A stretch of DNA of 64,000 nucleotides from Planctomycetota bacterium. GTDB lineage: Bacteria; Planctomycetota; UBA1135. A program made the position numbers and the translations under genes. The notes under the pieces are model-generated. The model was given only the letters and a program-made list of their open reading frames with translations, did no database searches and was not told the DNA's origin. Position 1 is the stretch's first letter. Every line of letters starts with the position of its first letter. Shown here piece by piece: positions 10,745 through 64,000 of the stretch. The stretch is taken from NCBI GenBank assembly GCA_021776925.1, contig JAJFFB010000127.1:48681-112680 (forward strand). Reading direction: 5' to 3'.

Positions 10745-12328
10745 CTAACGGCCCATGACTTCAGCGATGTAGGCCTGGAAGCGCTGCGTCAGGTAATCGT
10801 CGCCCACCAGGAAGGCGTGGCGCTCATTGGCCTGGAAGTCGATCTCGTTGGTCGGCTGTTCCCGATTGAGCACCTTGTACAAGTAGTAGCCAAGGATGCC
10901 CTCGCGCGGACCATAGACCGCCTTTTCTTCGGCACGGAAGAAAATGTCGTCGGCCACCGAGTGGCCGGTCAGGAAGTAGGTGTAATCGTTCTCACCGAGG
11001 AACTGGCGCAGCGGATTGAGCATCTGGGCACCGAGGCGTCCGCGCTTGGGCTGCGGCATGCCCTGGGCGGACCCGCGGGTGGTTTCAGGCAGTTCGCTGT
11101 AGGCGTCGAGGACGCGCGACCAGCCGTCGCCGTCGATCAGCTTCTGTGCCACCAGTTCGGCGCGTTGCGCCGCTTTGGCGAAGCTGCCTTCCTTCGGCCA
11201 CACGCCCGAATCCAGATCGCGGGCGGAGATCAGGATGATCTCGGCGTTGACCTTGCCGCCACCGAGGAACAGCCGGCGGGCGTCGAGGTTGGCCTGCAGG
11301 TCGGCGACCGGCACCGGGTCGGGCAGAGTGTCGCGGAAACTTTCGCGCAGGCGTTTCCACTGATGGAACAACTCCATCGTCGGGAAGCCCATGAACTCGA
11401 GAGCCAGCTGTTCGTAGGTGATGTAGGACTGGACGAACTCCTTGCGCTCCTCGGTGATGATGGCCTGGGTCTCGGCGTGGGTAAGCAATTTGCCCTTCGC
11501 CGCCAGGTCGGCCTCGAGCTTGGTGATCAGTTCGGTCCAGGTGGCCGCCCATTCCAATTGCACGTCCGAAGTGATCTGCAGGGCGAATTCGACCATTTCG
11601 GCGGTGGTCACGACGGTGCCGTCGACGCGCAGACAAATGCCCTCGGGCAGGCCATCGAAGGGAAACTCAATGGTTGACTTGTCCATCAGCCAGCCGAAAA
11701 GGCGCGGCCGCAGGAACATCTTCATGACCGTCGGGTCGATCTCGCCGGGCTCTCCTTTGGCGCGCAAATCGCCGAGGGTGGTCGGCATGTCCTTGACCAG
11801 GCTGCCCCACAGCGACTGTTTGACCGCCTCTTCATCGGGGTTGTTGCCGCCGAAGACTTCCTTGAGGATGTCGGTCGGCCACTTCTCGAGGTCGTGCGGG
11901 AAGAATAGATTCTCCAGCTCGAGCTGATGGCGGATCTCGCCGCGGTAGGTCTCGTCGGTGTAGCCGAACAGCTTCACCTGGGCCCAGAAATCGAGGTCCG
12001 GATTGGTCTTTTTGAAGTCCGACAGAGTGCGTTCGATGCGCGCTTCGACGTCGAGATCGCTGACCGGGTCGCCGCCGAGCGGAATGTTGTTGTCCTGACG
12101 GCGTTTGACTTCCGAGGCCACCAGCAAGGCGTTGATCTTCTGGTAGATGTGCGATCCGGCTACCGTGTAGACCAGGGTGCGGTGGTAACGCTCGTCTTCG
12201 GAGATCTGCGGGCGCTGTTCGGTCGCGGCGGGCGCGGACGGATCAGCCCCGGACTGGGCCCGGGCGGGACCAGCGGCAAGGACGAGCAGGAGGAGAAGCA
12301 GGGAAAGACGGAATGGCACGCGGTTCAT
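10745..12328 (-). CDS. secreted protein, possibly SurA/PPIase-like
   Basis: 527 aa with signal peptide MNRVPFRLSLLLLLLVLAAGPARAQ; adjacent divergent gene is a PPIC-like lipoprotein. Confidence 0.5.
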   Translation of the reverse strand: MNRVPFRLSLLLLLLVLAAGPARAQSGADPSAPAATEQRPQISEDERYHRTLVYTVAGSHIYQKINALLVASEVKRRQDNNIPLGGDPVSDLDVEARIERTLSDFKKTNPDLDFWAQVKLFGYTDETYRGEIRHQLELENLFFPHDLEKWPTDILKEVFGGNNPDEEAVKQSLWGSLVKDMPTTLGDLRAKGEPGEIDPTVMKMFLRPRLFGWLMDKSTIEFPFDGLPEGICLRVDGTVVTTAEMVEFALQITSDVQLEWAATWTELITKLEADLAAKGKLLTHAETQAIITEERKEFVQSYITYEQLALEFMGFPTMELFHQWKRLRESFRDTLPDPVPVADLQANLDARRLFLGGGKVNAEIILISARDLDSGVWPKEGSFAKAAQRAELVAQKLIDGDGWSRVLDAYSELPETTRGSAQGMPQPKRGRLGAQMLNPLRQFLGENDYTYFLTGHSVADDIFFRAEEKAVYGPREGILGYYLYKVLNREQPTNEIDFQANERHAFLVGDDYLTQRFQAYIAEVMGR

Positions 12329-12392
12329 TTACGTTCTGGGCAACCTTCGCGGTCCAATAGTCTACCCTGTCCTGCAGTGATCGCCTGAATTC

Positions 12393-13043
12393 ATGTGCGC
12401 CCGAATCCTGCTCCTTTTTCTGCCCCTGACGGCGCTGAACTGCGGCGGCGCGGCAGAAGTCCGCAGCTACCTCCAGGTGGGTGGCGCGGTCATCGAAGGC
12501 GCCGAGCTTGAAGCAGCCGTAGACGGCCTGCGCGGCGCCTTCGCCAGTTCCGGCCGCCAGACCCTGGCCTGGGCCTTGCTCGATCAGGGATTCGGCGCCA
12601 GCGCCCTGCTGCACCACCGCCTGACCGCCGAAAGCCATGCCGCCCGTACCCAAGCCGACACCTACGCCGCGCGCCTGGATGCCGGCGAGGGTTTCTACGC
12701 GCTGCTCCAAGAAATCGGCGAGAGCGACCCGGTGATGCTGCGTTCGCCCACCCCATTCGGCCTCGGCGCGAGTGCCGCCGCCGCCGTCGGCGGCATGGAA
12801 GCGGGAGAATGGCGCGGCCCGCTGGCCTCGCTCAAGGGCTGGGAGATCATCCTGCTGGAAAAACGCCTCGAGGGGCTGCGTTCGCGTTCGGGTGTTATCG
12901 TGCGAAGACTGGTCTTTCCGGTAGGCACCGACGCCGACCGCGACCAGGCCCGCGCCGATTGGGCCCGGCTGCCGCTAGAAGGCAGTGCGGATATGCTCGA
13001 TACCCTGCCTGCGGTGTTCCGCCACGGCCGCGTTGCTTCATGA
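12393..13043 (+). CDS. parvulin (PPIC)-like peptidyl-prolyl isomerase, possible lipoprotein
   Basis: LLPLTALNCGG; LDAGEGFYALLQEIGES...FGLGASAAAAVGGMEAGEWRGPLASLKGWEIILLEKR parvulin-like. Confidence 0.65.
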   Translation: MCARILLLFLPLTALNCGGAAEVRSYLQVGGAVIEGAELEAAVDGLRGAFASSGRQTLAWALLDQGFGASALLHHRLTAESHAARTQADTYAARLDAGEGFYALLQEIGESDPVMLRSPTPFGLGASAAAAVGGMEAGEWRGPLASLKGWEIILLEKRLEGLRSRSGVIVRRLVFPVGTDADRDQARADWARLPLEGSADMLDTLPAVFRHGRVAS

Positions 13044-45331: not shown

Positions 45332-47191
45332 ATGCTGGGTAGCCTTCCTGTCATTCTGGGCCTGCTGATGGGCGCACCATTGGCGACCGCCCAGGACCCC
45401 CCCCACAACCAGGACAATGGCATTTCCTGCACGACTTGCCACGTCTTCGATTTCTTCTTCCAGACCGACCCAGACACCACGTGTCTGTCGTGCCACAACC
45501 CGCTCGGGGTGATTCCGGTGACCACCCACGGGACGGCCGGGAATGCTTTGCAGTGCATCACCTGTCACGATCCACACACTCAGGAGCAGGAAGCCGCACA
45601 CGGTTCTACCTATTCAAAACTGATTCGAACCCTGGTCGCCACCCCGTTCAGCGGCGACCGGCCGGTCAAGTTGATGGCATCGAGCGGTCCGCACTCCTTT
45701 GCCGACGGCGATGGCGAATACGACGGCATCTGCGAGGTGTGCCACACCCAGACCGACTATCACCGCAACAATCCGACCGGCAACCATGAGCACAACGTTG
45801 CCAAGCGCTGCACCGCGTGTCATATCCACGGCGCCGGTTTCCTGCCGGTGGGCGGCGACTGTCTTGACTGCCACAACCAAGAGCAACCGCCGGCGGGTCT
45901 GTACCGACGCCAGGTGGTCGAGAACATGGGCGACGGCGGCGGAGATTTCATTCGTGCAGCGCACCACGTCAACGACCTTTCTGGCACCGAAATCGTCACC
46001 GGCGGAGACTGCATCGTGTGTCACGATCAGTCGCGTCACCAGGCCAATCAGGATCCAGGTGTTTATCTGAACGATCCTGACGGCGGACCTCCGCACACCT
46101 ACACCGGCAGTTCCGGCGGCATGGCGGTTGAATTCTGCGTCGCCTGTCACGACGACGACGCCCAGGGCGGCAACCTGCAGCCATTCTCGTCGGGCCGTTC
46201 GCCTGTCAATATCGACCAGCACTGGTCGAACCCGGCCAAGCACGGCGAAGCTGCGGTCGGCGTTGCCTGTCTCGACTGCCACGCCAACGGGCACGGCGGC
46301 GACAACCCGTCGATGCAGCTCAATATGGAAGAACTGTTGTGCCTCAGCTGCCACACCCTCAGCTACGGCATCACCGATATCGAGGGCGAGTTTGCCAAGG
46401 CCTGGCACCACCCGGTCGAAGCCCAGTCCGGCACGCACGCCATCGGCGAAGATCCGTACACCATGGCGCGCCACGTCGAATGCGCGGACTGCCACAACCC
46501 GCATGCGGCCAATCTTGATCTGACTTCGCTGCCGCCCGCCACTCCCGGCGGCATGCTCGGGGTCTCCGGCATCGACGGCAGCGGCAATCTGCTCGCCGCG
46601 GCTGCCAATGGCTACGAGGTCTGCTACAAGTGCCACGCCGCCACAAATCCCGGATCGGCGGCGCTGCCCCGCATCGAGATCGAAACCGACGTCAGCGTCG
46701 AATTTGACCCAGGACGCGCTTCCTACCACCCAATCGAGGCGGCGGGCAAGAACGCGATCGTGCCGAGCCTGATGGCGGGCTGGAGCGAGGATTCGATCGT
46801 TCGTTGCGAAAACTGCCATGCCGGCGACAGCGACATCCGCGGGCCGCACGGTTCCAGTCACCGCTGGATCTTGAAGGAGAACTACACCGTCACCGACGAA
46901 TGGCCGGAGTTCCCCTTCACCTACGCACTTTGCTACACCTGCCACGACCGGGACTCGATCCTGAATAACGATTCCTTCCCGTTGCACTACAAGCACGTGG
47001 TCCTGGAACAGGCTCCGTGTTCGGCTTGCCACGATGCGCACGGATCCAGCAACACCCACCTGATCAATTTCCGCAGCGATCTGGTCACCCCCAACGGCAA
47101 TGGGGATCTGTCGTTCCAGGACGACGGCGACCTCAAGGGCACTTGCAACCTCCATTGCCACGGTAAACCCCACATCGACAGGAAGTACTAA
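45332..47191 (+). CDS. exported multiheme c-type cytochrome (15 CXXCH plus one CX3CH)
   Basis: Counted CTTCH, CLSCH, CITCH, CEVCH, CTACH, CLDCH, CIVCH, CVACH, CLDCH, CLSCH, CADCH, CYKCH, CENCH, CYTCH, CSACH and CNLHCH; signal peptide MLGSLPVILGLLMGAPLATAQ. Confidence 0.93.
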   Translation: MLGSLPVILGLLMGAPLATAQDPPHNQDNGISCTTCHVFDFFFQTDPDTTCLSCHNPLGVIPVTTHGTAGNALQCITCHDPHTQEQEAAHGSTYSKLIRTLVATPFSGDRPVKLMASSGPHSFADGDGEYDGICEVCHTQTDYHRNNPTGNHEHNVAKRCTACHIHGAGFLPVGGDCLDCHNQEQPPAGLYRRQVVENMGDGGGDFIRAAHHVNDLSGTEIVTGGDCIVCHDQSRHQANQDPGVYLNDPDGGPPHTYTGSSGGMAVEFCVACHDDDAQGGNLQPFSSGRSPVNIDQHWSNPAKHGEAAVGVACLDCHANGHGGDNPSMQLNMEELLCLSCHTLSYGITDIEGEFAKAWHHPVEAQSGTHAIGEDPYTMARHVECADCHNPHAANLDLTSLPPATPGGMLGVSGIDGSGNLLAAAANGYEVCYKCHAATNPGSAALPRIEIETDVSVEFDPGRASYHPIEAAGKNAIVPSLMAGWSEDSIVRCENCHAGDSDIRGPHGSSHRWILKENYTVTDEWPEFPFTYALCYTCHDRDSILNNDSFPLHYKHVVLEQAPCSACHDAHGSSNTHLINFRSDLVTPNGNGDLSFQDDGDLKGTCNLHCHGKPHIDRKY

Positions 47192-47193
47192 CG

Positions 47194-48066
47194 ATGCAAC
47201 GATTCTCACTGATCATCGTTCTTGCGGTTTTGGTCGTCGTCGGCGGCTCGATGGCTCCCAGCGGGGCTGCGGTCCGCGCCGGCCTTTTCTACCCATCCAG
47301 CGCCGCGCGTCTGGCTGGCTTCAGCACCGGTGGCGGCGACCTGCTGCTGATGAGCTTTCCGCAGGAAGACCTCCTGCGCCTGGTCAACGACCAGGGCCAA
47401 TTGGTGCGCGAATTCATCGAAGTGCGGCAACCAGTGGGCCTGGCGATCAGCACCGACCGCGTTTACGTGGGTTCTTCCAAGACCGGAGCGGTCGAGATCT
47501 ATGATCTGCAAGGAGCAGCTCTGGGGCACCTGGGTGCCGGCACCGGCGAATTCGGCCGGCCGACCGATATCGAGGTCTCGCCCCTCAGCGGCGAGATCTA
47601 CGTCGTCGACGCCTCCCGTCAGGAGATCCGCATTTTCGACCCGCTCAGCTTGTTGCAGGTCGGCGTTCTGGGCGATGGTTACCTGACCAGGCCGGCCAGC
47701 CTTGACATCGCTGCCGACGGCAGCGTGTTGGTAGGCGACCTGATTCAAGGCAGCGTCGAGGAGTTCGACCAGGCGGGTATGTACCGCGGCTCCTTCACTA
47801 CTGCCGGGCACGCAGACGCCGAGACCAGGCGGCCGACCGGCATCACCCGCGACCAGTTCGGCAGGGTCTATGTCAGCGACGCACTGCTCAACAAAGTGGT
47901 GGTCTACGAAACCGATGGCACCTTCATCACCACCTTGGGCAGTTATGGTTCCGGTCCAGGTTTGATGCGCAATCCGCTCGACACCTGGGTCAGCCCCAGT
48001 AACGGCTTGGTGGTGGTCGCCGATCTCGGAGACCGCGAGGTCGAGGTGTTTCCGGCGGTTCCCTGA
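47194..48066 (+). CDS. secreted NHL-repeat / six-bladed beta-propeller protein
   Basis: GTGEFGRPTDIEVSPLSGEIYVVDASRQEIRIFD; DQFGRVYVSDALLNKVVVYETDGTFITTLGSYGSGPGLMRNP. Confidence 0.88.
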   Translation: MQRFSLIIVLAVLVVVGGSMAPSGAAVRAGLFYPSSAARLAGFSTGGGDLLLMSFPQEDLLRLVNDQGQLVREFIEVRQPVGLAISTDRVYVGSSKTGAVEIYDLQGAALGHLGAGTGEFGRPTDIEVSPLSGEIYVVDASRQEIRIFDPLSLLQVGVLGDGYLTRPASLDIAADGSVLVGDLIQGSVEEFDQAGMYRGSFTTAGHADAETRRPTGITRDQFGRVYVSDALLNKVVVYETDGTFITTLGSYGSGPGLMRNPLDTWVSPSNGLVVVADLGDREVEVFPAVP

Positions 48067-53037: not shown

Positions 53038-53177
53038 GATTGAATTCGGCGCGCAGTCTTTATGTCCCCCACCACGGCCAGGTGAAGTTGAGCAAGGAGA
53101 CCTTCATCCTAGCTAGGGTCAGCTAGCAATGCTATTTCCTGGGTCCGCAATGGTGGATCCAGGACTAGAATGCCTTG

Positions 53178-54578
53178 ATGCTATTTCTTCCGCTGTTGCT
53201 GACCACCTGCTTTGCGTCCTATGCCGCCCCCGATGCTGCGCCGGCGCAGAAAGAAGCCGACGCCATCGTCGAGCCGGGTCGGCGGGCACCAGGCGGCAAG
53301 GTCCTGGAATGGAAATCCGACGAGGACAAGACCTATTGGTATCGCGTTCCCGAAAAAATCAGTGAGAAGAAGCCGCCGGCCTTGATCCTGATGCTCCATG
53401 GCACCGGCCTTCCCTGGGGATGGGCCTTCTGGAACTATCCCATCGCCACTGGCCAGTTCCGCGGCGATGACATCGTGGTCGCGCCCGAGGGAATGACTCC
53501 AGGTGCCAACAACACCTTCAATTTCGTTCAGTCCAAAAACGACGGCGATCACATCGCCGGACTCATCCGTTTCTTCAAGAGCAAGTATCCGATCGGCAGG
53601 GTCTACCTCTACGGCCACAGCCAGGGTGCTTTTTTCTGCTACTGGTTCGCCGGCGAATACCCCGAACTCATCGACGGCATCGTCGCCCACGCCGGCAACG
53701 TGCTCAGCGTGAATCACTCCCAGCTGGCCAAGGACAAGGTGGCGATCGGAATCCTCCACGGCAAGGCCGACGCCGTGGTCACCGTCGAGTGCGCCTATCG
53801 CACCAACGAGATCTACCTCAAAGAGGGCTACAAAAAGGTCAAGCTCTACGTCGTCGAAGGCCTCACAGCGAAGTCCGGCCACTGGCCTCTTCCTTTCCAG
53901 GTCGGCGAGATGTTCGAATGGCTGGATTCGGTATCGGTCGCCACTCCCGGACAGGCTCTGGCGGTGGTCGAAAAGGAACTCCAGGGTGAAGATCCCGATC
54001 TGGCGCTGATCGCCGAATCTCTGCGCCAGAGCCAGAGCCTGCTCAAGCGCTACAAAGAGGACGACCGCGAGGAACTGCAATCCAAGCTGGCCACCTATCA
54101 AGGGTTCATGCAACAGGCCCGTGCCGAGCATGAAGCGAGCTTGCTCGAGACCGCCGGGGTCGTCAAATCAAAGACTCCATTCGCACCCTGGGTCGAACAC
54201 TTCCGCGCTGTGGATGCGGCATTTGCCGAGGACCCGGCATGGAAGAAGTCCATGAAGAAAGCGCGCACCCTCGCCGCCAAGCATCACAAGCAGGTCGAAA
54301 AGGCACTGAGCGGCCTCGGCGTCAACAACCGCAAGGCCTTCGCTGCCGGCTACGAGGCCTTGGAGCAGGGTTTTCTGTCGCGGCGCTACGCCGAGTTGGA
54401 GAGCCGCATTCTCAAGCTGGCCGAAAATCCCCCCAAGGGCGTCGAGACCGCACAGATTAACGCCTTGCGCGATCTGATTGAGACGCGCAAGGTGGACCTG
54501 TCCAAGGGTGCCAACGCCGCCGTTTCGATCACCAGCAAGGCCGTCGATCTGTTTCGCGCCAAGCATCCAGGCTCCTAG
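53178..54578 (+). CDS. secreted alpha/beta hydrolase (esterase-like)
   Basis: PALILMLHGTGLPWG...RVYLYGHSQGAFFCYWFAGEYPELIDGIVAHAGN (GHSQG nucleophile elbow). Confidence 0.85.
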   Translation: MLFLPLLLTTCFASYAAPDAAPAQKEADAIVEPGRRAPGGKVLEWKSDEDKTYWYRVPEKISEKKPPALILMLHGTGLPWGWAFWNYPIATGQFRGDDIVVAPEGMTPGANNTFNFVQSKNDGDHIAGLIRFFKSKYPIGRVYLYGHSQGAFFCYWFAGEYPELIDGIVAHAGNVLSVNHSQLAKDKVAIGILHGKADAVVTVECAYRTNEIYLKEGYKKVKLYVVEGLTAKSGHWPLPFQVGEMFEWLDSVSVATPGQALAVVEKELQGEDPDLALIAESLRQSQSLLKRYKEDDREELQSKLATYQGFMQQARAEHEASLLETAGVVKSKTPFAPWVEHFRAVDAAFAEDPAWKKSMKKARTLAAKHHKQVEKALSGLGVNNRKAFAAGYEALEQGFLSRRYAELESRILKLAENPPKGVETAQINALRDLIETRKVDLSKGANAAVSITSKAVDLFRAKHPGS

Positions 54579-54605: not shown

Positions 54606-57600
54606 ATGAAAGGTCCCCAGTGCGATGTAGCCAGTTCCAGCAGCGTCTTCCTCAGTTATGGGCGGGCGGATGCCGAGGAGTTCGCCAAGAGACTTGCTCA
54701 TGACCTGAAGGAGAAGGGCGGTCACCGGGTTTTTCTCGATCTGACTGGGATCGAATCCGGCGGTCTGTTTGAAATCCGGATCGAACAAGGCATCCGTAAC
54801 AGCTCGGTGCTGCTCGCGGTCATGACCCCGCATTCGCTGCGGGATGAAAGCGTGTGCCGTGACGAGGTGGTGTTCGCCTTGAACGAAAAAAAGGACATCG
54901 TGCCGATTCAACTCGACCCCGAAGTCCGCCCCTCGCTGCTGTTGGCGCGCCGCAACTGGGTTGATTTTTCTCGCGACTACGATCGCGGCCTGAAAGACCT
55001 GCTGCGTTATCTCGGCGGCGACCAGAAGTGCCTGCGCAAACCGGTTCTCGGCCTGGTCGGAGGCGTCGTCCCCTTGGATTTCGGCACCGAGATCGCCAAT
55101 CACGCGCAGAACTTCTGCGGGCGCACCTGGCTGCTCAAAGAGATCGACGCATGGCTGGCCAAGCCCTCGGCCAAGCCCTTCCTCATCGTCGCAAAACCCG
55201 GCATGGGCAAGAGCGCGATCACCGCATGGCTGAGCTTGGAGCGCGCCGAAGCGGTGCTCGCCACCCATTTCTGCACCCAGCAGAACCTGCGCTCCAAGAA
55301 CCCCTTCGATTTTGTTGCCAACCTCGTCGGCCTGCTGCACGTCCGCCTGCCCGGTTTCCACGAAGAGGTCGACAAACGCCATCCGGAGCTGCGCCGCTCT
55401 TCTGCTTCGGACATGTTCCGCGAGCTGATCATTGATCCCTGTCTGGTGCTTTCCAACAAGGAAGCCCACCCCGAGCCAATGATGATCCTGGTCGACGCGC
55501 TCGATGAAGCCGAACTGACCGAAGGGGAAACCATCGTCGACGTGATCCGTAGTCAGGCCAAGAGCCTGCCGCCTTGGCTGCGGCTGGTGATGACCAGCCG
55601 TCCCGAACCGAGCGTGATGTCCAAGCTCAGCGGGCTCGGCACCCACGAGATCCGCGCCGAGGGCAATGCCAACCAGAAAGACCTGCGTGATTTCGTGGAG
55701 TCACGCATCGCCACCCTCACAACAGACGTCGCCGAGGCCAACTGGGGTTCCTTTGCCACCGATCGCATCTGCGAACTGGCCCAGGGCAATTTCCTCTACG
55801 CACGGCTGGTCCTGGATGCGCTCCGCGACGGCGACCTCGATGTGGATGCACTCGAGCGTCTCAGCCCTTCTCTCGATGGACTCTACCTGGATGCCTTCAA
55901 TCGGCGTTTCTCCGCTGCGGACCGCTATCAGGACGAGACCTCGGCGGTGTTGTGCCCGCTGGCGGTTGCCGAGTCGCCCCTGTCGTTGGAAGACCTGAAA
56001 CAGATCAGCGGCCTGCCGGGTGGCAAGGTCAATTTGCAGCTGCAAAAGGTCAAGTCCTTCCTGCGCACCAGTGGCAGCGGGAAGGATACAGTGTATTCGC
56101 TCTTCCACCGGTCCATGCAGGATTGGCTGCTTGACCCAGAAGTCTCTGGAATCTATTACTGCGACGAGAGCCTAGGCCATAGAGCCCTGGCCGAATACGG
56201 CTGGAGCCTCTACCAAACGAGTGAGCTGGATGGGCACGCCTATTTTCAGGTCTATCTTCCAGATCACTTATTGGCCGGAGGTTTCGAAGACCGTCTGCTC
56301 ATCTTCCTGGCCGATCTGCACCAATTGGAGCTGGCGGTCGACCGCGGCAGCGGCCACAACTGGATGCGTTTCCTGTGTCTGCTATCGGACCGCCTCGACC
56401 CGGCCGAGGAGTTCCGCAAGGCGCTCGACCAGACGCGCCTTGAGGGCGCCGCCCTGGGCACCATCGGCGGTTTTGCCAACAAGGTGGCGCGCCTGCTACT
56501 GGAATACGGGCTTTTCGAAGAGGCCGAATTGTTCGCCCAGGAAGCTGTGCACTGCACAGAACAGGAAAACGGCCCAGACCACCCGCGCCTGGGTGAATGC
56601 TTGCGCGACCTCGCCGAAATCCACCGCAATCTTGGGCAGCTCGGACCTGCGCACCAAGGATTCGAACGCGCGCTGCGCATCGCCACCAAGAATTTTGGCG
56701 AGAACAGCCGCCAGGTCGCGCGGCTGCTCAATGACTTTGCCAACTACCATCGCAATTCTCATGATCTGAAAGAGGCGCTGATCTGTAATCAACGCGCCAC
56801 CGAGATCCTGGAAAAGCTGGCCGAGCCCGACCTTGCGGCTCTTGGAGACAGCTACAACGACCACGTGGTTCTTTGTGAGGCCGCGGGCATCGAGGTCGAT
56901 TCCTTTGCCGGCTACCATCACGCTCTCGAATTATTCCAGCAGGAGTTTGGCGAGGAGCACCCGTTGATCGCGATCGCCCTCGCCAACATCGGCTGCGTAT
57001 TCCAGAAGCGCTCCGAATACCAGGTCGCCGAGCGCTATTTCCGCCGCTCGCTCGAAATATTGCTCAAGTTCTGTGTTTCCAGCCACCCCAACTGCCAGGG
57101 AGTGCGCCGTTTTCTCGCCAATTGCCACAACCGCCAGGACCACACCCGAGATGCACTGAAGCTGCAGCTGGACATCGTCGCCAGCACCCCGCCAGGAACC
57201 GTAGCGGCGCTGGGCGGGCGCCTGCAGATCGCCAAGATGAAGGAACAGTGCGGGGAGCCGCAGAATCTGGCCGAGGTGCTGCGCGAGATCCGCAAGGACT
57301 GCGACTCGGTGAGCGACAGCGGGCCGATCCGTGCCGCGCTGCGCAGCTTCGGCAACGAACTGAACGGCACCGCGCTCCACCTGAAGAACGTCGAAGCGGG
57401 CTACCAGGAAGCCGAACGACACTACCGTGCGGCCATTGCGTGCGTTCCCGAGGCGCCCATCTTCCTGAACAACCTGGCCCAGCTCCTGGCAACGGTCGAC
57501 GAGCGCTACAGCGAAGCCGAAGTCTTGTTCCAGCACGGCCTCGAAATCGACCCCGAGGAACAGACCTTGCACTCCAACTACGGGCTCCTATTGCAGAACG

Positions 57601-58085
57601 TGCGTCGTGATTTCGACGCGGCCGAATCGCACTATCAACTGGCACTGGCCAAAGAACCGAACTGCCCGTGGTTCCGCGGCAACTACTCCACCCTGCTGCT
57701 GATCAAAGGTGAGATCGAAGCAGCGCGAGTGCTGGTCACCGAAACCTGGTCGCGATTCCCCAACCGCCTGAACCGGGCCTGTCTGCGCCATCTCTTCGTG
57801 CGCGCCTTGATTGCCGAACTCGATGGCAAGGGCGAGCAACTCTTCCTGCGCCAGCTGAAGACGCATTTGTGTTCCAAGCTTCCGCACGCTCCGTGGCCGG
57901 TGAGCGCGCTGCTCGATGAACTGGCCCCGCGCCTGGGCGAAGCCACCAGTGCCTTCTTCCGCGCGCTTTCTACCGCCATAAACGACCGCCGCGCCGTGGT
58001 CGGCCTCGAAGCCTTCCCGCTGTGGATCAGCCTCGCAGAGGAAAGCCTGGACACCCCCTGGCCTGCAGCCACGCGACAGGAATGA
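54606..58085 (+). CDS. TIR - STAND/NACHT NTPase - TPR protein
   Basis: TIR: VFLSYGRADAEEFAKRLAHDL...SVCRDEVVFALNEKKDIVPIQL; Walker A AKPGMGKSAI; Walker B MMILVDALDEAE; RLVMTSRPE; C-terminal TPR arrays. Confidence 0.92.
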   Translation: MKGPQCDVASSSSVFLSYGRADAEEFAKRLAHDLKEKGGHRVFLDLTGIESGGLFEIRIEQGIRNSSVLLAVMTPHSLRDESVCRDEVVFALNEKKDIVPIQLDPEVRPSLLLARRNWVDFSRDYDRGLKDLLRYLGGDQKCLRKPVLGLVGGVVPLDFGTEIANHAQNFCGRTWLLKEIDAWLAKPSAKPFLIVAKPGMGKSAITAWLSLERAEAVLATHFCTQQNLRSKNPFDFVANLVGLLHVRLPGFHEEVDKRHPELRRSSASDMFRELIIDPCLVLSNKEAHPEPMMILVDALDEAELTEGETIVDVIRSQAKSLPPWLRLVMTSRPEPSVMSKLSGLGTHEIRAEGNANQKDLRDFVESRIATLTTDVAEANWGSFATDRICELAQGNFLYARLVLDALRDGDLDVDALERLSPSLDGLYLDAFNRRFSAADRYQDETSAVLCPLAVAESPLSLEDLKQISGLPGGKVNLQLQKVKSFLRTSGSGKDTVYSLFHRSMQDWLLDPEVSGIYYCDESLGHRALAEYGWSLYQTSELDGHAYFQVYLPDHLLAGGFEDRLLIFLADLHQLELAVDRGSGHNWMRFLCLLSDRLDPAEEFRKALDQTRLEGAALGTIGGFANKVARLLLEYGLFEEAELFAQEAVHCTEQENGPDHPRLGECLRDLAEIHRNLGQLGPAHQGFERALRIATKNFGENSRQVARLLNDFANYHRNSHDLKEALICNQRATEILEKLAEPDLAALGDSYNDHVVLCEAAGIEVDSFAGYHHALELFQQEFGEEHPLIAIALANIGCVFQKRSEYQVAERYFRRSLEILLKFCVSSHPNCQGVRRFLANCHNRQDHTRDALKLQLDIVASTPPGTVAALGGRLQIAKMKEQCGEPQNLAEVLREIRKDCDSVSDSGPIRAALRSFGNELNGTALHLKNVEAGYQEAERHYRAAIACVPEAPIFLNNLAQLLATVDERYSEAEVLFQHGLEIDPEEQTLHSNYGLLLQNVRRDFDAAESHYQLALAKEPNCPWFRGNYSTLLLIKGEIEAARVLVTETWSRFPNRLNRACLRHLFVRALIAELDGKGEQLFLRQLKTHLCSKLPHAPWPVSALLDELAPRLGEATSAFFRALSTAINDRRAVVGLEAFPLWISLAEESLDTPWPAATRQE

Positions 58086-58104
58086 ACGATTCCTTGGCAC
58101 CCCA

Positions 58105-59163
58105 ATGAAACAGCATCCCTACCGCGTATTCCTCAGCTATTCGCGTGAAGATTCTGCCCTGATGGAGGTCATTCATGATCATCTGTCACAGGAGCTCGGC
58201 TGCATTCCGGTGGTCGATCAGAAGAATCTGGTGGTCGGGCGGCCCTTCGATGACCGTATCCGGGAGTGCATCGAGCAGGCCCACGTCTTTCTCCCTCTCC
58301 TGACCCAAAACTCCAAATCCCGCCCCTGGGTTCATCAGGAAATCGGCTACGCCATGGGCAAGAACGTGCCCATCCTGCCGCTGGCGCTGGACTCCCTTCC
58401 GGATGGAATGCTGGGTCATCTGCAAGCCCTGCAGGTCAAATTTGATCTCACCGACCTGGCCGATTGCCTCACGCGGGAGACCGTCCACAATCTGGTCGAT
58501 CCTGATTGCGGCTTCCCTCCGCGGCCGGTCTATGAATACTCACGCAGCTTCGAAGAACGCACCGAGGTCCTGGTTTCGTGGGCTCAGCGTGCGCTTAATT
58601 CACAGCCCGGACGGGTGCGGATCCAGGCAGCCTTTTCGTCCTTTTCCATTCCCAAGGAGTTGCCCACTGACTCGGTCTGGCAGCAACGCGAAGGCACCCG
58701 GACGGTCGGAGAATACGCCCGCGGCCTGCTGCACAAGGAACGCATGACCCTCATGAAACATGCCGCCAAAGCTGGTTGCGACCTGATCTTGAACCCGGAA
58801 TCGGTCCCCAGGACCAACCACAGCCCGTGGTGGGATTCGCGGCTGAATGCAATGATCCATTCTCTGACCGAAATCCGCTCGAGTGCAGGGCCTCCTTCAA
58901 GGGTGGTGGTCACCTCGCACGATCAGAAACGCAACTTGTGCATTCTCAGCGATGCCTTCCTGGCCGAGGCCGTGGTCCCCTTCGGAGGCGGACACTTCCG
59001 CAACACCATGTTCACCCGTCACGCTCCGACCGTGCTCGAACGAATCATGGAATTTGAAGGACTGATGGAACATCTTCTGGAAGAGCAGGGCGTTGCCGCC
59101 GAGGACTCTTTGGACCATTCACTGGAGGCGCTCGAAGCCCTGCGCCCCAAGACCATCTCATGA
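58105..59163 (+). CDS. TIR-domain protein with uncharacterised C-terminal domain
   Basis: YRVFLSYSREDSALMEVIHDHLSQELGCIPVVDQKNLVVGRPFDDRIRECIEQAHVFLPLLTQNSKSRPWVHQEIGYAMGKNVPILPLALD. Confidence 0.9.
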   Translation: MKQHPYRVFLSYSREDSALMEVIHDHLSQELGCIPVVDQKNLVVGRPFDDRIRECIEQAHVFLPLLTQNSKSRPWVHQEIGYAMGKNVPILPLALDSLPDGMLGHLQALQVKFDLTDLADCLTRETVHNLVDPDCGFPPRPVYEYSRSFEERTEVLVSWAQRALNSQPGRVRIQAAFSSFSIPKELPTDSVWQQREGTRTVGEYARGLLHKERMTLMKHAAKAGCDLILNPESVPRTNHSPWWDSRLNAMIHSLTEIRSSAGPPSRVVVTSHDQKRNLCILSDAFLAEAVVPFGGGHFRNTMFTRHAPTVLERIMEFEGLMEHLLEEQGVAAEDSLDHSLEALEALRPKTIS

Positions 59164-60944
59164 CCGCATCAGAATCAAAGGACGCGGCAGATCCCGCAAT
59201 CAGTGGGGTTCCGTTGGTGATCGGAGTCACTGGGCACCGCGATCTGGTGCCGGAGCAGACCGGCCGCATTCAGAGCGCGGTGGTGAAGATTCTGGAGCAG
59301 CTTGCCGAGGATTATCCCAACACTCCTCTGCTCCTGCTCACTCCGCTTGCCGAAGGGGCCGACCGGCTCGCTGCCGAGGCCACCTTGGAGTGGAACCGCC
59401 AGCGCCGGGAAGCTGGCAGATCCACGGTCCGGATCGCGGCTCCTCTGCCATTGCCCCTCGAGGCCTATCGAGTCGACTTCGAGCAGGAAGATTCTGAAAC
59501 TGAATTCCAACGCCTTCTCGATCACCCAGACGTTGAGTCATTTTTGCTGGAGTCGGCAACTCCACCGTCGGTCCAAGATCTGATCCAGTCGCCCGAGCTG
59601 CGCACCCAGGCTTATGACCACCTGGCCCATTTTCTGGCGCGCAACTGCCACGTTCTGATCGCCATGTGGGAAGGGAACCACCCCGAAAAAAGCTCCCTGA
59701 CCGGTGGCACCGAAGACGTCGTCAACCGCTTTCTCCACGGAGTCGCCGCCAACCCTTCTTCGGCGGACGATCCCTTGGACCCACCGGACGGTTTGCTGCT
59801 GGTCGATCTCCGCGTCGCCCGCCAACGCCATGCCTCGCCCCCGGAATTCGCCTGGCAAGGAACCCCCTGCGGAGAAAACCACACCGAGATCCTGCGCCAG
59901 ATCAATACCTTCAACGTCGACGTACAAGAATCCGGCCAGCTGGGTGCTGCCCAAAAGCAGTCCCGCGAGTGGCTGCTGCCGGCCAAGGTACAGGAAGAAT
60001 ACAAGACCAGGCTTGAAGACTACCTGTCCGTATTCGGCATGGCCGACGCCCTCTCCATCCACCGCTTCCAGCGCGCGTGGTTCCGCTACGTCGGTCTGCT
60101 CGTCGTACTCCCCTTTGTTGCCATCGTCTGCTTCGAGGCATATTGCCACCTTTTCCCGGGCACCCACCCATTGCTCGCGTCTTACCTTGCCGTTTTTGGC
60201 GCGGCCGCCTGCGCCTACGTCATCGCCGACAAGAAGCGGTTTGAAAACAAGTACCTGGTCTACCGTTCCTTGGCCGAGTCCCTGCGCGTACAGGTTGCCA
60301 TGTGCCTCGCCGGAGAATGCCAGTCGGTCGGGCGATTCTATGACCGCATGCACCGCCGTGACATCGAGTGGGTGCGTCAGGCTCTGAAAGGCGTTCATGT
60401 GCGACAACTGATTCGCCGAGGCAAGGCGCAAGGGGCGGGCATCGAGCAGCTGCGTCTGACGATTGAACACTGGGTCGTGGACCAAAAAAAATGGATGAAG
60501 AAGCGGTCTTTGGAACTTGCACCCAAGCACGTGCGCTACCGAACGGGATCCCGCTTCCTCGTTGGCCTCAGCATCGGCCTTTCGATCGTGCTGTTGTTCT
60601 TCGGTTTCCGTGAGTCCGCGGCTGAGTCGATCCCCAGCCACTCTCTGGAACATGCTGCGATCGTCCTGATCGTCCTCTTGCTCGCCGCGGCTGCGATCAC
60701 CCACGAGTTCACCCGGCGCATGGGGCACGCGGCCCTCGCCCAGCGCTACCATGCGATGAGCGATCTCTTCACTCGCGCTGAAGTTCGCATCCAAGCCATT
60801 TTGGACCAGGAGCATTCAGGTCCAAATGAACAGATGGAACAAGCGCGCAGCATCCTGCAATCCCTTGCCCGCGAAGCACTCAGCGAAAACGTGGGCTGGC
60901 TCCTCTTCCGCCGTGACCACCCCCTCGAAATCCATACTCCCTGA
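59160..60944 (+). CDS. SLOG-like Rossmannoid domain plus 4-TM (SLATT-like) membrane protein
   Basis: VIGVTGHRDLVPEQ...LLLLTPLAEGADRLAAEATL...CHVLIAMWEG; two TM hairpins (YVGLLVVLPFVAIVCFEAYC / LASYLAVFGAAACAYVIA and FLVGLSIGLSIVLLFFGF / AAIVLIVLLLAAAAITHEF); ATGA overlap with the TIR gene. Confidence 0.78.
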   Translation: MTASESKDAADPAISGVPLVIGVTGHRDLVPEQTGRIQSAVVKILEQLAEDYPNTPLLLLTPLAEGADRLAAEATLEWNRQRREAGRSTVRIAAPLPLPLEAYRVDFEQEDSETEFQRLLDHPDVESFLLESATPPSVQDLIQSPELRTQAYDHLAHFLARNCHVLIAMWEGNHPEKSSLTGGTEDVVNRFLHGVAANPSSADDPLDPPDGLLLVDLRVARQRHASPPEFAWQGTPCGENHTEILRQINTFNVDVQESGQLGAAQKQSREWLLPAKVQEEYKTRLEDYLSVFGMADALSIHRFQRAWFRYVGLLVVLPFVAIVCFEAYCHLFPGTHPLLASYLAVFGAAACAYVIADKKRFENKYLVYRSLAESLRVQVAMCLAGECQSVGRFYDRMHRRDIEWVRQALKGVHVRQLIRRGKAQGAGIEQLRLTIEHWVVDQKKWMKKRSLELAPKHVRYRTGSRFLVGLSIGLSIVLLFFGFRESAAESIPSHSLEHAAIVLIVLLLAAAAITHEFTRRMGHAALAQRYHAMSDLFTRAEVRIQAILDQEHSGPNEQMEQARSILQSLAREALSENVGWLLFRRDHPLEIHTP

Positions 60945-60963
60945 GCACGAGGACCCGACTGCG

Positions 60964-63552
60964 ATGGACCTGGCCACGGCACGCCCCGTCCACGTCCTCG
61001 TCGTCGGTGACGTTTTGCGCCATCACCGGATCTACCGGGGTCACCGGAGCACGCCGGACATGGTCGACAGACCACCTTCGCGCGCCCGCCTGAGCCTCGG
61101 CGGTGCGCCGATGTTGGCCGACCTCCTGCAAGGCGCCCTGTCCGGCGCCGCAAACGCTCGCGTCGAAACCCCGTTAGAGGCCAGCAGCGAAGCCTTGAAT
61201 CCCGCGCTGCCGACCTGTTTTTCCGAGTGGCGGGCCACCGCGACGGAAGCTGGCGAGAGCGAAGGGGTATGGCGCCTGGACCGGGTTCTTGGCTTTGACG
61301 ACTGCGATCTCGATCGCTGTGTCCTCCCGCCATTGATTGCTGGGGAAGCTCCGACCCTGACCGTTTTGCAGGACCGTGGCTGGTCCTTCCGACACGGCCG
61401 CTGCCAGCAGGCCTGGCCCGCATGGCTGCGCGATTCTGACGCCGAGCTGCCAGAGTTCCTCGTCTTCGAACACGCTGGTCCGCTGGCGCAGGGCGACTTG
61501 TGGCGCCAAGTTCTGGCGCGCGCCGCCGATCGCACCGTGGTCCTGACTTCGATCGAAGACGTGCGTCACGAATCGGTGCGCGTTTCGATCGCCTCCTCGT
61601 GGGAACGCACCGCCACCGAACTGGTGCAGGAGCTGCTGGAAAATCCCGCCTTGAACCCATTGCTCGCTTGCCGCGCGGTGGTCATCGGCCTGGGGTACGC
61701 CGGCGCGCTGGTGGTGGCGCGCAACGGCTCCGAGTTGCAGGCGCGCCTGGTCTACGACCCTGGAACGCAGTGCGGAGAATGGAGCCCCGCCACGGATTCG
61801 GTGGCCCAGGTTCCGATGCGTGCTCTTAGCGGAGGAGTGGCCGCGTGCATGGCACGGATTGTGGCGAATCCTTCGGCCAAGGAGCGAGGCCGGGCCTGGA
61901 TTCCTGATTCCCTGTGCGCCATGGTGCGGTCTGGACTCGGTGCGATGCGGGCAGAGTTCCTGCTCGGCCACGGGCCTGCCAGCGAGGCGCCACAATACCC
62001 TGTCGCGCGAATCGCCGCCGCGATGCAGGATGATCACGACTGCTTCGCCATCGCCCCGGTACCGCTCGAGCCCCCCCCGCCGACCTGCGCCTCGCCGTGG
62101 ACCTTGCTGGCGGCTTCGGCCGGCGCGCTCGACGCACCCTTGTACGGCTTGGGCATGCGCACCGCGCTGCAAGGCCGCCAGGCCCTCACTCAAGTGCCCG
62201 GCGAATCTTTCGGCAAGCTGTTCACGGTCGACCGCCAGGAAATCGAGAGCCTGCGCACCATTCGTCAGCTGATCCGCGACTACGCCGGCTCGGGCGCGCA
62301 ATCCAAGCCGTTGTCGTTGGCGGTCTTCGGCCCTCCGGGCTGCGGCAAGTCGTTCAGCGTGAAACAGATCGCGCGCGATGCCATGGGGAAACAGGGCGCA
62401 TTCCTCGAATTCAACCTGTCCCAGTTCCACGGGCCTGCCGACCTGATCGGCGCCTTCCACCAGGTGCGCGACGAGGTGCTCAAGGGCGGCGTGCCGCTGG
62501 TGTTCTGGGACGAATTCGATTCGCGTGGCCATAAGTGGCTGCAGTATCTGTTGGCGCCGATGCAGGACGGCGCCTTCCAAGAAGGTCCCCTCACCCACCG
62601 CATCGGCAAGTGCGTTTTTGTCTTCGCCGGCGGAACCAGTTTTGATTTTCAGAATTTCGGCCCGGCTCCAGACAGCCCGGACGCCGCTGAATTCCGTCGT
62701 CTCAAGGGGCCGGATTTTCGCAGCCGCATCTCCGGATACCTCAACGTGCTCGGCCCCAACCGACGCTGCACGCGTGCGCCCGGCCAGGAAGAATGGGAAC
62801 CGTGCCCGGAGGACACCTGCTTCCCGGTGCGCCGTGCGATTTTGTTGCGCAATCTTCTCGGCCTGCACGGCAACGACCCGCTCGACATCGACCTCGGCCT
62901 GTTGCAGGCTCTGCTCGAGATCCGCAGCTTCGAACACGGCATTCGCTCGATGGAAAAGATCCTCTCTGCGGTACGCCGCAAAAGTCCTGGACCGCGCCTG
63001 GAACGGTCGGCCATTCCGGATCAGGAGGAACTGGCGCTTTACCTCGACGCCGACGAATTCATGTCCATCGTGCGCCGCGATCTGCACTATCAGCAGGTGG
63101 CGGAGAAAATCGCTCCGGCGATTCACGCTTTTTACAACGCCCACGTCGGTGAAGCCTCACAGCAGACTCCTTACGTGATGCCCTTCGAAGAACTGCCGGC
63201 TGACATCCAAGAAGACAATCGCGCCGCCGCCCGCCGCATCCCCGAAGTCCTCAGCCTGGTCGGCCTGGAACTGGTCGCCGACCCGGAGAGTCGCGGCAGC
63301 GATCCGGCCTGCCTGCAGCAGATTCAGGACAACCTCGAAGTGTTGGCCGAGGCCGAGCACGACGGCTGGATGCTTGCTCGCAGGCGCAACGGCTGGCGTG
63401 CCGGGCCGCGCGACAACGACAACAAGATCCACCCCCTGCTGGTGCCTTATGTGCAGCTTCCCAACGAGGAACAGGACAAGGATCGCGACGGCGTCCTGAC
63501 CTACGCCGCCAAGGTGGAGCCGGCCGGCTTCCGCATCGCGGCCAAGACCTAG
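60964..63552 (+). CDS. AAA+ ATPase with N-terminal sugar-kinase-like region and C-terminal RyR-like domain
   Basis: N-term VHVLVVGDVLRHHRIYRG...GGAPMLADLL; Walker A FGPPGCGKSFSVK, Walker B LVFWDEFDS, sensor FVFAGGTS; C-term LAEAEHDGWMLARRRNGWRAGPRDNDNKIHPLLVPYVQLPNEEQDKDRDGV resembles RyR repeats. Confidence 0.82.
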   Translation: MDLATARPVHVLVVGDVLRHHRIYRGHRSTPDMVDRPPSRARLSLGGAPMLADLLQGALSGAANARVETPLEASSEALNPALPTCFSEWRATATEAGESEGVWRLDRVLGFDDCDLDRCVLPPLIAGEAPTLTVLQDRGWSFRHGRCQQAWPAWLRDSDAELPEFLVFEHAGPLAQGDLWRQVLARAADRTVVLTSIEDVRHESVRVSIASSWERTATELVQELLENPALNPLLACRAVVIGLGYAGALVVARNGSELQARLVYDPGTQCGEWSPATDSVAQVPMRALSGGVAACMARIVANPSAKERGRAWIPDSLCAMVRSGLGAMRAEFLLGHGPASEAPQYPVARIAAAMQDDHDCFAIAPVPLEPPPPTCASPWTLLAASAGALDAPLYGLGMRTALQGRQALTQVPGESFGKLFTVDRQEIESLRTIRQLIRDYAGSGAQSKPLSLAVFGPPGCGKSFSVKQIARDAMGKQGAFLEFNLSQFHGPADLIGAFHQVRDEVLKGGVPLVFWDEFDSRGHKWLQYLLAPMQDGAFQEGPLTHRIGKCVFVFAGGTSFDFQNFGPAPDSPDAAEFRRLKGPDFRSRISGYLNVLGPNRRCTRAPGQEEWEPCPEDTCFPVRRAILLRNLLGLHGNDPLDIDLGLLQALLEIRSFEHGIRSMEKILSAVRRKSPGPRLERSAIPDQEELALYLDADEFMSIVRRDLHYQQVAEKIAPAIHAFYNAHVGEASQQTPYVMPFEELPADIQEDNRAAARRIPEVLSLVGLELVADPESRGSDPACLQQIQDNLEVLAEAEHDGWMLARRRNGWRAGPRDNDNKIHPLLVPYVQLPNEEQDKDRDGVLTYAAKVEPAGFRIAAKT

Positions 63553-63556
63553 ACCC

Positions 63557-64000
63557 TTACCAGGGTGCCACCACCGCCCGACCGGGAGCGGCGAGGTACT
63601 TCTCGATCCGGCGGCGGGTTGCCGGTGAGGTTCGTTCCGGCAAGGCCTCCATCGAAAAACTCGCGACTTGCTCGATCTCGCAGTCGCGCGTGGGCTCTCG
63701 CTGGAATTGTCGGCTGGCAAAGATCGTGATGTGATCCGATTTTCCTTCGTGGCAACTGTGATAGAGGCCGTGCAATTGCAATTCCTGCACGCTCGCCCCC
63801 ACTTCTTCCATGGCCTCACGGCGGGCCGCCTGCTCGAAACTTCCGCCGCGCTTGACAGCCCGTGGACAAAGTCATTCCGCGCCTCGCCGGCGCTTTCGCC
63901 TACCTGCGGCGTCAGCAGAACCCGCCCCTATCCACGGATAGGGGCCGAACCCGCTTCCTTGCCGGAAGACGAAACCACTCGCCAAGCCACGAAAGCACTT
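63557..64000 (-). pseudogene. Nudix hydrolase, apparently frameshifted and truncated by the window edge
   Basis: Intact Nudix C-half: CPRAVKRGGSFEQAARREAMEEVGASVQELQLHGLYHSCHEGKSDHITIFASRQFQ...; N-terminal pieces RVLLTPQVGESAGEARNDF and RVRPLSVDRG lie in other frames with intervening stops. Confidence 0.6.
63924..63945. repeat. perfect 10-bp inverted repeat GCCCCTATCC-AC-GGATAGGGGC
   Basis: Direct reading; palindrome inside the broken Nudix region. Confidence 0.6.

Follow-up and report, generated by a model that had tools for sequence, protein, structure and literature searches.

A planctomycete TIR operon pairing a SLOG membrane protein with an AAA-RyR protein: a candidate Thoeris-like signalling system

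What would a ryanodine receptor (RyR)-like domain do in a bacterium, next to TIR enzymes and a protein with a putative nucleotide sensor? The question is raised by four co-directional genes in the window, by which we mean the whole 64,000-nucleotide stretch of a planctomycete contig that was analysed. The initial annotation had read these genes as one operon, and the open reading frame positions bear out the layout, with spacings of 19 nt, −4 nt (a 4-nt overlap), and 19 nt:

54606 to 58085, plus strand: gene 1, 1159 aa, TIR, STAND NTPase, and TPR; predicted sensor and signal synthase
58105 to 59163, plus strand: gene 2, 352 aa, TIR and an orphan C-terminal domain
59160 to 60944, plus strand: gene 3, 594 aa, SLOG fused to two transmembrane (TM) hairpins; predicted ligand-gated membrane effector
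60964 to 63552, plus strand: gene 4, 862 aa, PfkB-like fold, AAA+, and tandem RyR repeats

Support for the gene 4 start at 60964 comes from 19 homologues, whose own starts line up with its Met. Since the window ends with the contig (112680 nt long) and the operon lies close by, additional genes past position 64000 could be missing. On the upstream side, an alpha/beta hydrolase gene (53175-54578) lies 27 nt ahead of gene 1. It was considered as a fifth member and rejected, since relatives that give no RyR match also have it. Convergent to the operon, on the minus strand, lies a possibly truncated ORF with a Nudix box (63557-63880; GGSFEQAARREAMEEVGA); its place in the system is not supported, as it sits on the opposite strand and, close to where the contig ends, has an in-frame stop upstream of it. 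PADLOC returned only partial HEAT-ARM, ThsA-type, and LmuA matches among ten flanking genes and no clear defence island. Farther away, a large ORF with many CxxCH motifs (45332-47191) is likely a multiheme c-type cytochrome and is followed by a repeat-rich protein (47194-48066).

The domains, key residues, folds, and linkage described here were established by computation, and together they point to what is probably a Thoeris-like TIR nucleotide-signalling immune system in which a SLOG protein would be the membrane effector and AAA-RyR would act as a second receiver or as an eraser. We infer the identity of the signal, the pore activity, and the choice of role for AAA-RyR, and an antiphage role is suggested purely by the family context. 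The argument begins with the two proteins that could make a signal. Pfam recovers the two TIRs, the STAND module with TPRs, the AAA domain, and the RyR domain that had been proposed earlier; in genes 1 and 2 the features are as follows:

54645 to 55004, plus strand: TIR domain of gene 1 (Pfam TIR_2, 2e-24), Glu at the catalytic position conserved (CRDE)
55125 to 56285, plus strand: STAND/NPHP3-type NTPase module of gene 1, P-loop AKPGMGKS (Pfam NPHP3_N, residues 174-332, 1e-16)
56463 to 57770, plus strand: TPR array of gene 1 (Pfam TPR_12 at 1e-26, TPR_10, TPR_NPHP3, and others)
58555 to 59160, plus strand: orphan C-terminal domain of gene 2, to which no Pfam or NCBIfam family was assigned

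The NPHP3_N match scores 62 bits against a cut-off of 24.8 and is followed by TPRs, which identifies gene 1 as a STAND NTPase. Homologues of its TIR-STAND architecture occur at two other loci, L060 (27% identity, 7e-50) and L011, which share a profile match over residues 161-560. The TIR of gene 2 matches Pfam TIR_2 (2e-18) and reaches 21.2 bits with ThsB_TIR, exactly the cut-off of that model. Of 393 genomes of the phylum, no more than three have its orphan domain: G000, G402, and, with a weak match, G374. The only good homologue among these genomes is the G402 protein, itself a TIR protein that matches gene 2 over its full length (31% identity, 3e-45) and is encoded elsewhere in the genome from the AAA and SLOG-4TM genes, which have no adjacent TIR there. 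A Glu occupies the catalytic position in 26 of 28 linked TIRs, both window TIRs included.

The TIRs can be read in two ways. The PDB entries nearest to the gene 1 TIR are the SPARTA TIR-APAZ and SARM1 TIRs, which are NADases, and TIR-STAND fusions resemble depletion-type systems. Moreover, one AAA-RyR gene has a DUF4062-NACHT-TPR protein near it (L023:14851-17685), DUF4062 being a TIR-like NADase family (PMC13174449). These observations favour a scheme in which the TIRs would be plain NADases that kill by depleting NAD+, in the manner of SPARTA or DUF4062 systems, while SLOG-4TM and AAA-RyR would sense the breakdown products and only modulate the outcome. We regard that scheme as improbable: the TIRs are linked time and again to two nucleotide-receptor modules, which speaks for signalling, and the presence of a second small TIR is reminiscent of ThsB-type systems. 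In the signalling reading that we prefer, the TIR-STAND-TPR protein would detect an infection cue and assemble, and one or both TIRs would then convert NAD+ to a cyclic-ADP-ribose-type signal.

A signal of this kind requires a receiver, and gene 3 is the first candidate:

59214 to 59729, plus strand: SLOG-like Rossmann domain with VTGHRxL ... LAEGADRL ... GGT (hhalign, Foldseek)
60090 to 60227, plus strand: TM hairpin 1, residues 311-329 and 338-356 by hydropathy; weak SLATT_3 match over residues 291-376
60552 to 60701, plus strand: TM hairpin 2, residues 465-483 and 496-514 by hydropathy

Pfam gave no SLOG match for gene 3, only SLATT_3 and DUF4231 below threshold. The SLOG call of the initial annotation is instead supported by hhalign and Foldseek. 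By hhalign, gene 3 aligns with DprA at 80% probability (E 1.5e-5, 139 columns in register), as compared with 6% for TIR and 0.1% for RyR used as controls. The AlphaFold model (mean pLDDT 77) has a five-strand alpha/beta N-terminus followed by long helices, and its Foldseek matches at a probability of at least 0.95 are DprA, ShosA, TM1055, and the BcThsA SLOG with 3'cADPR, at weak E-values of 3e-3 or worse; TRPM channels also appear, at low to moderate probability. The conserved G-rich motif block GVTGHRxL...LAxGADRL...GGT is present in a family alignment of 13 relatives and in a separate one of the SLOG parts, and the block also exists as standalone proteins that adjoin AAA-RyR genes and give sub-threshold YpsA/DprA Pfam matches. 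The two hairpins claimed earlier correspond to the four TM segments found by hydropathy. Scores against the SLATT models fall under their cut-offs (19.9 bits vs 45 for SLATT_3; 13.2 vs 26.3), which places gene 3 outside SLATT, and the predicted pore role therefore draws on hydropathy and analogy. From sequence and model, gene 3 can be called SLOG-4TM, a well-supported assignment that falls short of final. Its SLOG domain would bind the signal, whereupon the two TM hairpins would open or disrupt the membrane, leading to cell arrest or death.

Gene 4 is where the RyR question is most acute, and its architecture proved richer than first described:

60988 to 62223, plus strand: N-terminal ribokinase (PfkB)-like fold, a putative ligand-binding pseudo-kinase without GAGD (Foldseek)
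62236 to 63072, plus strand: AAA+ ATPase, Walker A GPPGCGKS, Walker B VFWDEFD (Pfam AAA, 5e-6)
63097 to 63276, plus strand: RyR repeat 1, degenerate; H721 kept, N752 at the position of the catalytic Asp
63319 to 63498, plus strand: RyR repeat 2; H799, W802, H823, and D840 correspond to RyDEP H75, W78, H100, and D117

The AlphaFold model (pLDDT 83) resolves into three matched folds, PfkB/ribokinase, AAA+, and a RyR tandem of the Repeat12 type; the PfkB-like N-terminus and the tandem go beyond the earlier description. For the N-terminus, Foldseek returns fructose-1-P kinase, LacC, HldA, and ribokinase (3e-7 to 5e-6), yet GAGD, the PfkB catalytic motif, is absent from 20 of 20 homologues despite the fold match. 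The AAA+ part matches FtsH, ClpA, and RuvB, and nearly all of the 20 homologues retain Walker A and B. The RyR-like domain is firmly present, at 49.1 bits (7e-13) with PF02026 against a gathering threshold of 27.4, and it also matches the R12 sequence and fold in the PDB. It is a tandem pair rather than a single domain, a reading supported by the Repeat12 match spanning 174-194 columns of the tandem (Foldseek; 6uhi, RyR3) and by two separate RyR matches in relatives. H721 and N752 are invariant columns in repeat 1 of the homologues.

The second repeat aligns directly with RyDEP at 48% identity over 46 aa. This phage protein, described in a 2026 preprint, counters TIR signalling by binding and hydrolysing 2'/3'cADPR with the catalytic dyad H75/D117 (PMC13232231). 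Because the residues for binding and cleavage in RyDEP are kept, AAA-RyR is a candidate for either receiving or erasing the signal from the TIRs, which sharpens the earlier and vaguer suggestion that it regulates or remodels. We lean slightly toward a second receiver. The alternative is that the RyR repeat hydrolyses TIR-made 2'/3'cADPR in the way of RyDEP, setting a threshold or ending the response, with SLOG-4TM as the only effector. The complete His/Asp dyad, H799 and D840, invariant across 20 AAA-RyR homologues, would fit such an eraser. So would a contrast at Anaerolineae loci that carry both types of RyR protein, where the TM-TrkA_N-RyR repeat has Asn in place of Asp at the catalytic position and AAA-RyR keeps the Asp, a pattern that would fit a pure sensor in the first case and a possible cleaving enzyme in the second; at the level of sequence, this hints at a division of labour between sensing and clearing. 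However, apart from RyDEP itself, every homologue tested failed to cleave even though sequence conservation is high, and other phage homologues bind without cleaving (PMC13232231), so the residues are insufficient for hydrolysis and their conservation in gene 4 predicts binding but not necessarily cleavage. An eraser would also leave the AAA+ and PfkB-like modules unexplained, and we consider it rather unlikely. With AAA-RyR as a receiver, its RyR pair would bind the same or a sister signal and ATP would switch a partner; with AAA-RyR as an eraser, the signal would be cleaved and the response would end.

A scan of genome contigs found 22 loci with gene 4 relatives at 33-43% identity in Actinomycetota, Anaerolineae, Bacteroidia, Verrucomicrobia, Fibrobacteres, Planctomycetota, Alphaproteobacteria, and an archaeon. 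One distant relative from another family of the same phylum, L060, holds all four components (AAA-RyR, SLOG-4TM, TIR-STAND, and TIR-FHA) inside about 10 kb, in an order that differs from that of the window. Other loci, those of Actinomycetota, Anaerolineae, and Bacteroidia among them, keep subsets of the four: TIR, AAA-RyR, and SLOG occur together in three actinobacterial loci, and four Anaerolineae loci combine AAA-RyR and SLOG with a RyR protein bearing TM segments, three of them with TIR genes as well. Among the 22 AAA-family genes with usable flanks, 13 have TIR or SLOG no farther than 6 kb away. Of 12 informative SLOG-4TM loci, 9 have a TIR gene at most 6 kb away, where about 0.01 would be expected per locus (binomial, about 1e-15); the loci found by SLOG-4TM homology alone give 6 of 8 (about 8e-11). 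These values, based on 114 TIR_2 matches in about 131 Mb from 23 genomes (0.87 per Mb), are upper bounds on surprise because random placement and independence of loci are assumed. The linkage of TIR and SLOG-4TM far exceeds chance. The association is also loose in places: AAA-RyR has neither TIR nor SLOG close by at L008, L019, L020, and L023, and RyR is not essential to the AAA family, since AAA proteins at L106 and on the plasmid L078 are without it. What the initial annotation proposed as domains, as an operon, and as a nucleotide-centred conflict system is borne out; the neighbourhood is conserved, and the structure predictions for genes 3 and 4 support SLOG and RyR folds. The sequence of events it suggested, from a sensing STAND-TIR through a TIR-made nucleotide to a SLOG-4TM protein that would permeabilise the membrane, is compatible with these results.

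Conservation also bears on what the system responds to. An operon context with no demonstrated phage cue or defence island, next to an upstream hydrolase that is an ordinary chromosomal gene, could suit a system for regulated cell death or stress that has nothing to do with phage, answering, for example, other cellular damage. We find this quite unlikely: the distribution is scattered, with 6 of 151 relatives having RyR, the spread across phyla at the identities above is wide, and there are occurrences on plasmids. In addition, at least 273 phage records have RyR-like matches (E up to 1), and one such protein counters TIR signalling (PMC13232231). A phage origin of the operon itself was rejected: viral contigs gave a single AAA relative whose match stops short of RyR, and the phage collection gave no match across the AAA part of gene 4. 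An immune role for the operon remains our preferred reading.

RyR and SLOG are present on other proteins as well. RyR membrane proteins occur at L018, L022, L024, L025, L012, L061, and L066 (e.g., L022:5527-7332), and those of Anaerolineae are placed between the AAA-RyR/SLOG and TIR genes. Several have TrkA_N (RCK) between the TM and RyR parts and resemble RyR-gated K+ channels; for the Anaerolineae proteins, TrkA_N was shown at the single locus examined, L022. RyR is fused to a RelA/SpoT synthetase domain at L067:6771-9698, with a TIR gene directly upstream, and L068:514-3027 encodes RelA/SpoT-LSDAT-RyR, the LSDAT (SLOG) match being just under its cut-off. An RyR-TPR-S-SLOG-guanylate cyclase-like protein (L057:9309-11666) is followed by a Neur_chan_memb protein resembling a pentameric channel (11898-12935), and L063:9435-10850 fuses RyR to DUF4231, also a weak match of gene 3. 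At L019 and on a Methylobacterium plasmid (L077), AAA-RyR adjoins a gene for a SIR2_2-TPR protein of 2082 aa, encoded on the opposite strand. Found on several effector types, SLOG and RyR therefore recur as alternative or joint sensors.

There is also a broader proposal, to which we give an even chance. In it, the RyR domains of bacteria would serve as built-in receivers, or else erasers, of the cADPR-type immune signals that TIRs make; RyR and SLOG domains could replace each other on various effectors, and the window operon would hold both a membrane effector gated by SLOG and a receiver of the AAA-RyR type. The link between cADPR and the ryanodine receptor has long been debated, and the proposal, if true, would give it a bacterial context. 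It would place the TRPM SLOG and RyR Repeat12, modules of animal ADPR/cADPR-linked Ca2+ channels, in one bacterial TIR immune pathway, and it would bring membrane and AAA+ receivers into the scope of TIR immunity. Phage RyR proteins were recently found to bind the cADPR signals that TIRs make, or to cleave them (PMC13232231); in hosts, RyR function is directly testable because RyR repeatedly adjoins TIR and SLOG genes with its ligand residues intact.

How does the operon compare with known systems? No PADLOC or NCBIfam system model fits it. None of the papers compared joins RyR, SLATT, and SLOG, and the four-gene architecture is a candidate for an undescribed one, its priority uncertain relative to Burroughs et al. 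2015 (NAR) and to the TIR-system survey by Yirmiya et al. 2025 (doi 10.64898/2025.12.03.692087). RyDEP (phage DyoEdafos gp78), an RyR-domain glycosidase, has a homologous RyR repeat with the four ligand and catalytic residues, but it is a small phage counter-defence homodimer, whereas gene 4 joins an RyR tandem to an AAA+ ATPase in a host TIR operon. Gene 4 likewise shares the tandem R12 fold of animal RyR (6uhi, RyR3) but has no channel domain; the likeness is in fold, with no Ca2+ role implied. The SLOG and TM arrangement of gene 3 recalls TRPM, through the weak matches noted above. With SLATT/DUF4231 proteins, gene 3 shares paired TM hairpins beside a nucleotide-sensor domain; it differs in scoring under the family cut-offs, in having two hairpins rather than one, and in carrying SLOG in the same chain. 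DUF4062 systems and TIR-STAND proteins similarly fuse a TIR-like enzyme to a STAND/NACHT NTPase with repeats, but the DUF4062 systems are described as NADases, with SLOG and RyR unmentioned there (PMC13174449). CBASS was rejected, as Pfam and PADLOC found no CD-NTase among the four genes. Thoeris, which we take to consist of a ThsB TIR and a SIR2-SLOG ThsA, or a Macro-TM protein in type II, is closest in logic. The window TIRs keep the catalytic Glu beside a separate SLOG-bearing receiver, and the structural neighbours of gene 3 include the ThsA SLOG in its form with 3'cADPR. Thoeris itself was rejected: gene 2 has a ThsB-like TIR, but there is no ThsA-type effector, the four proteins giving no SIR2 or Macro domain in Pfam and no ThsA model match in PADLOC. 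Instead, the window operon puts its SLOG domain on four TM helices and adds a STAND-TPR protein and an AAA-RyR protein.
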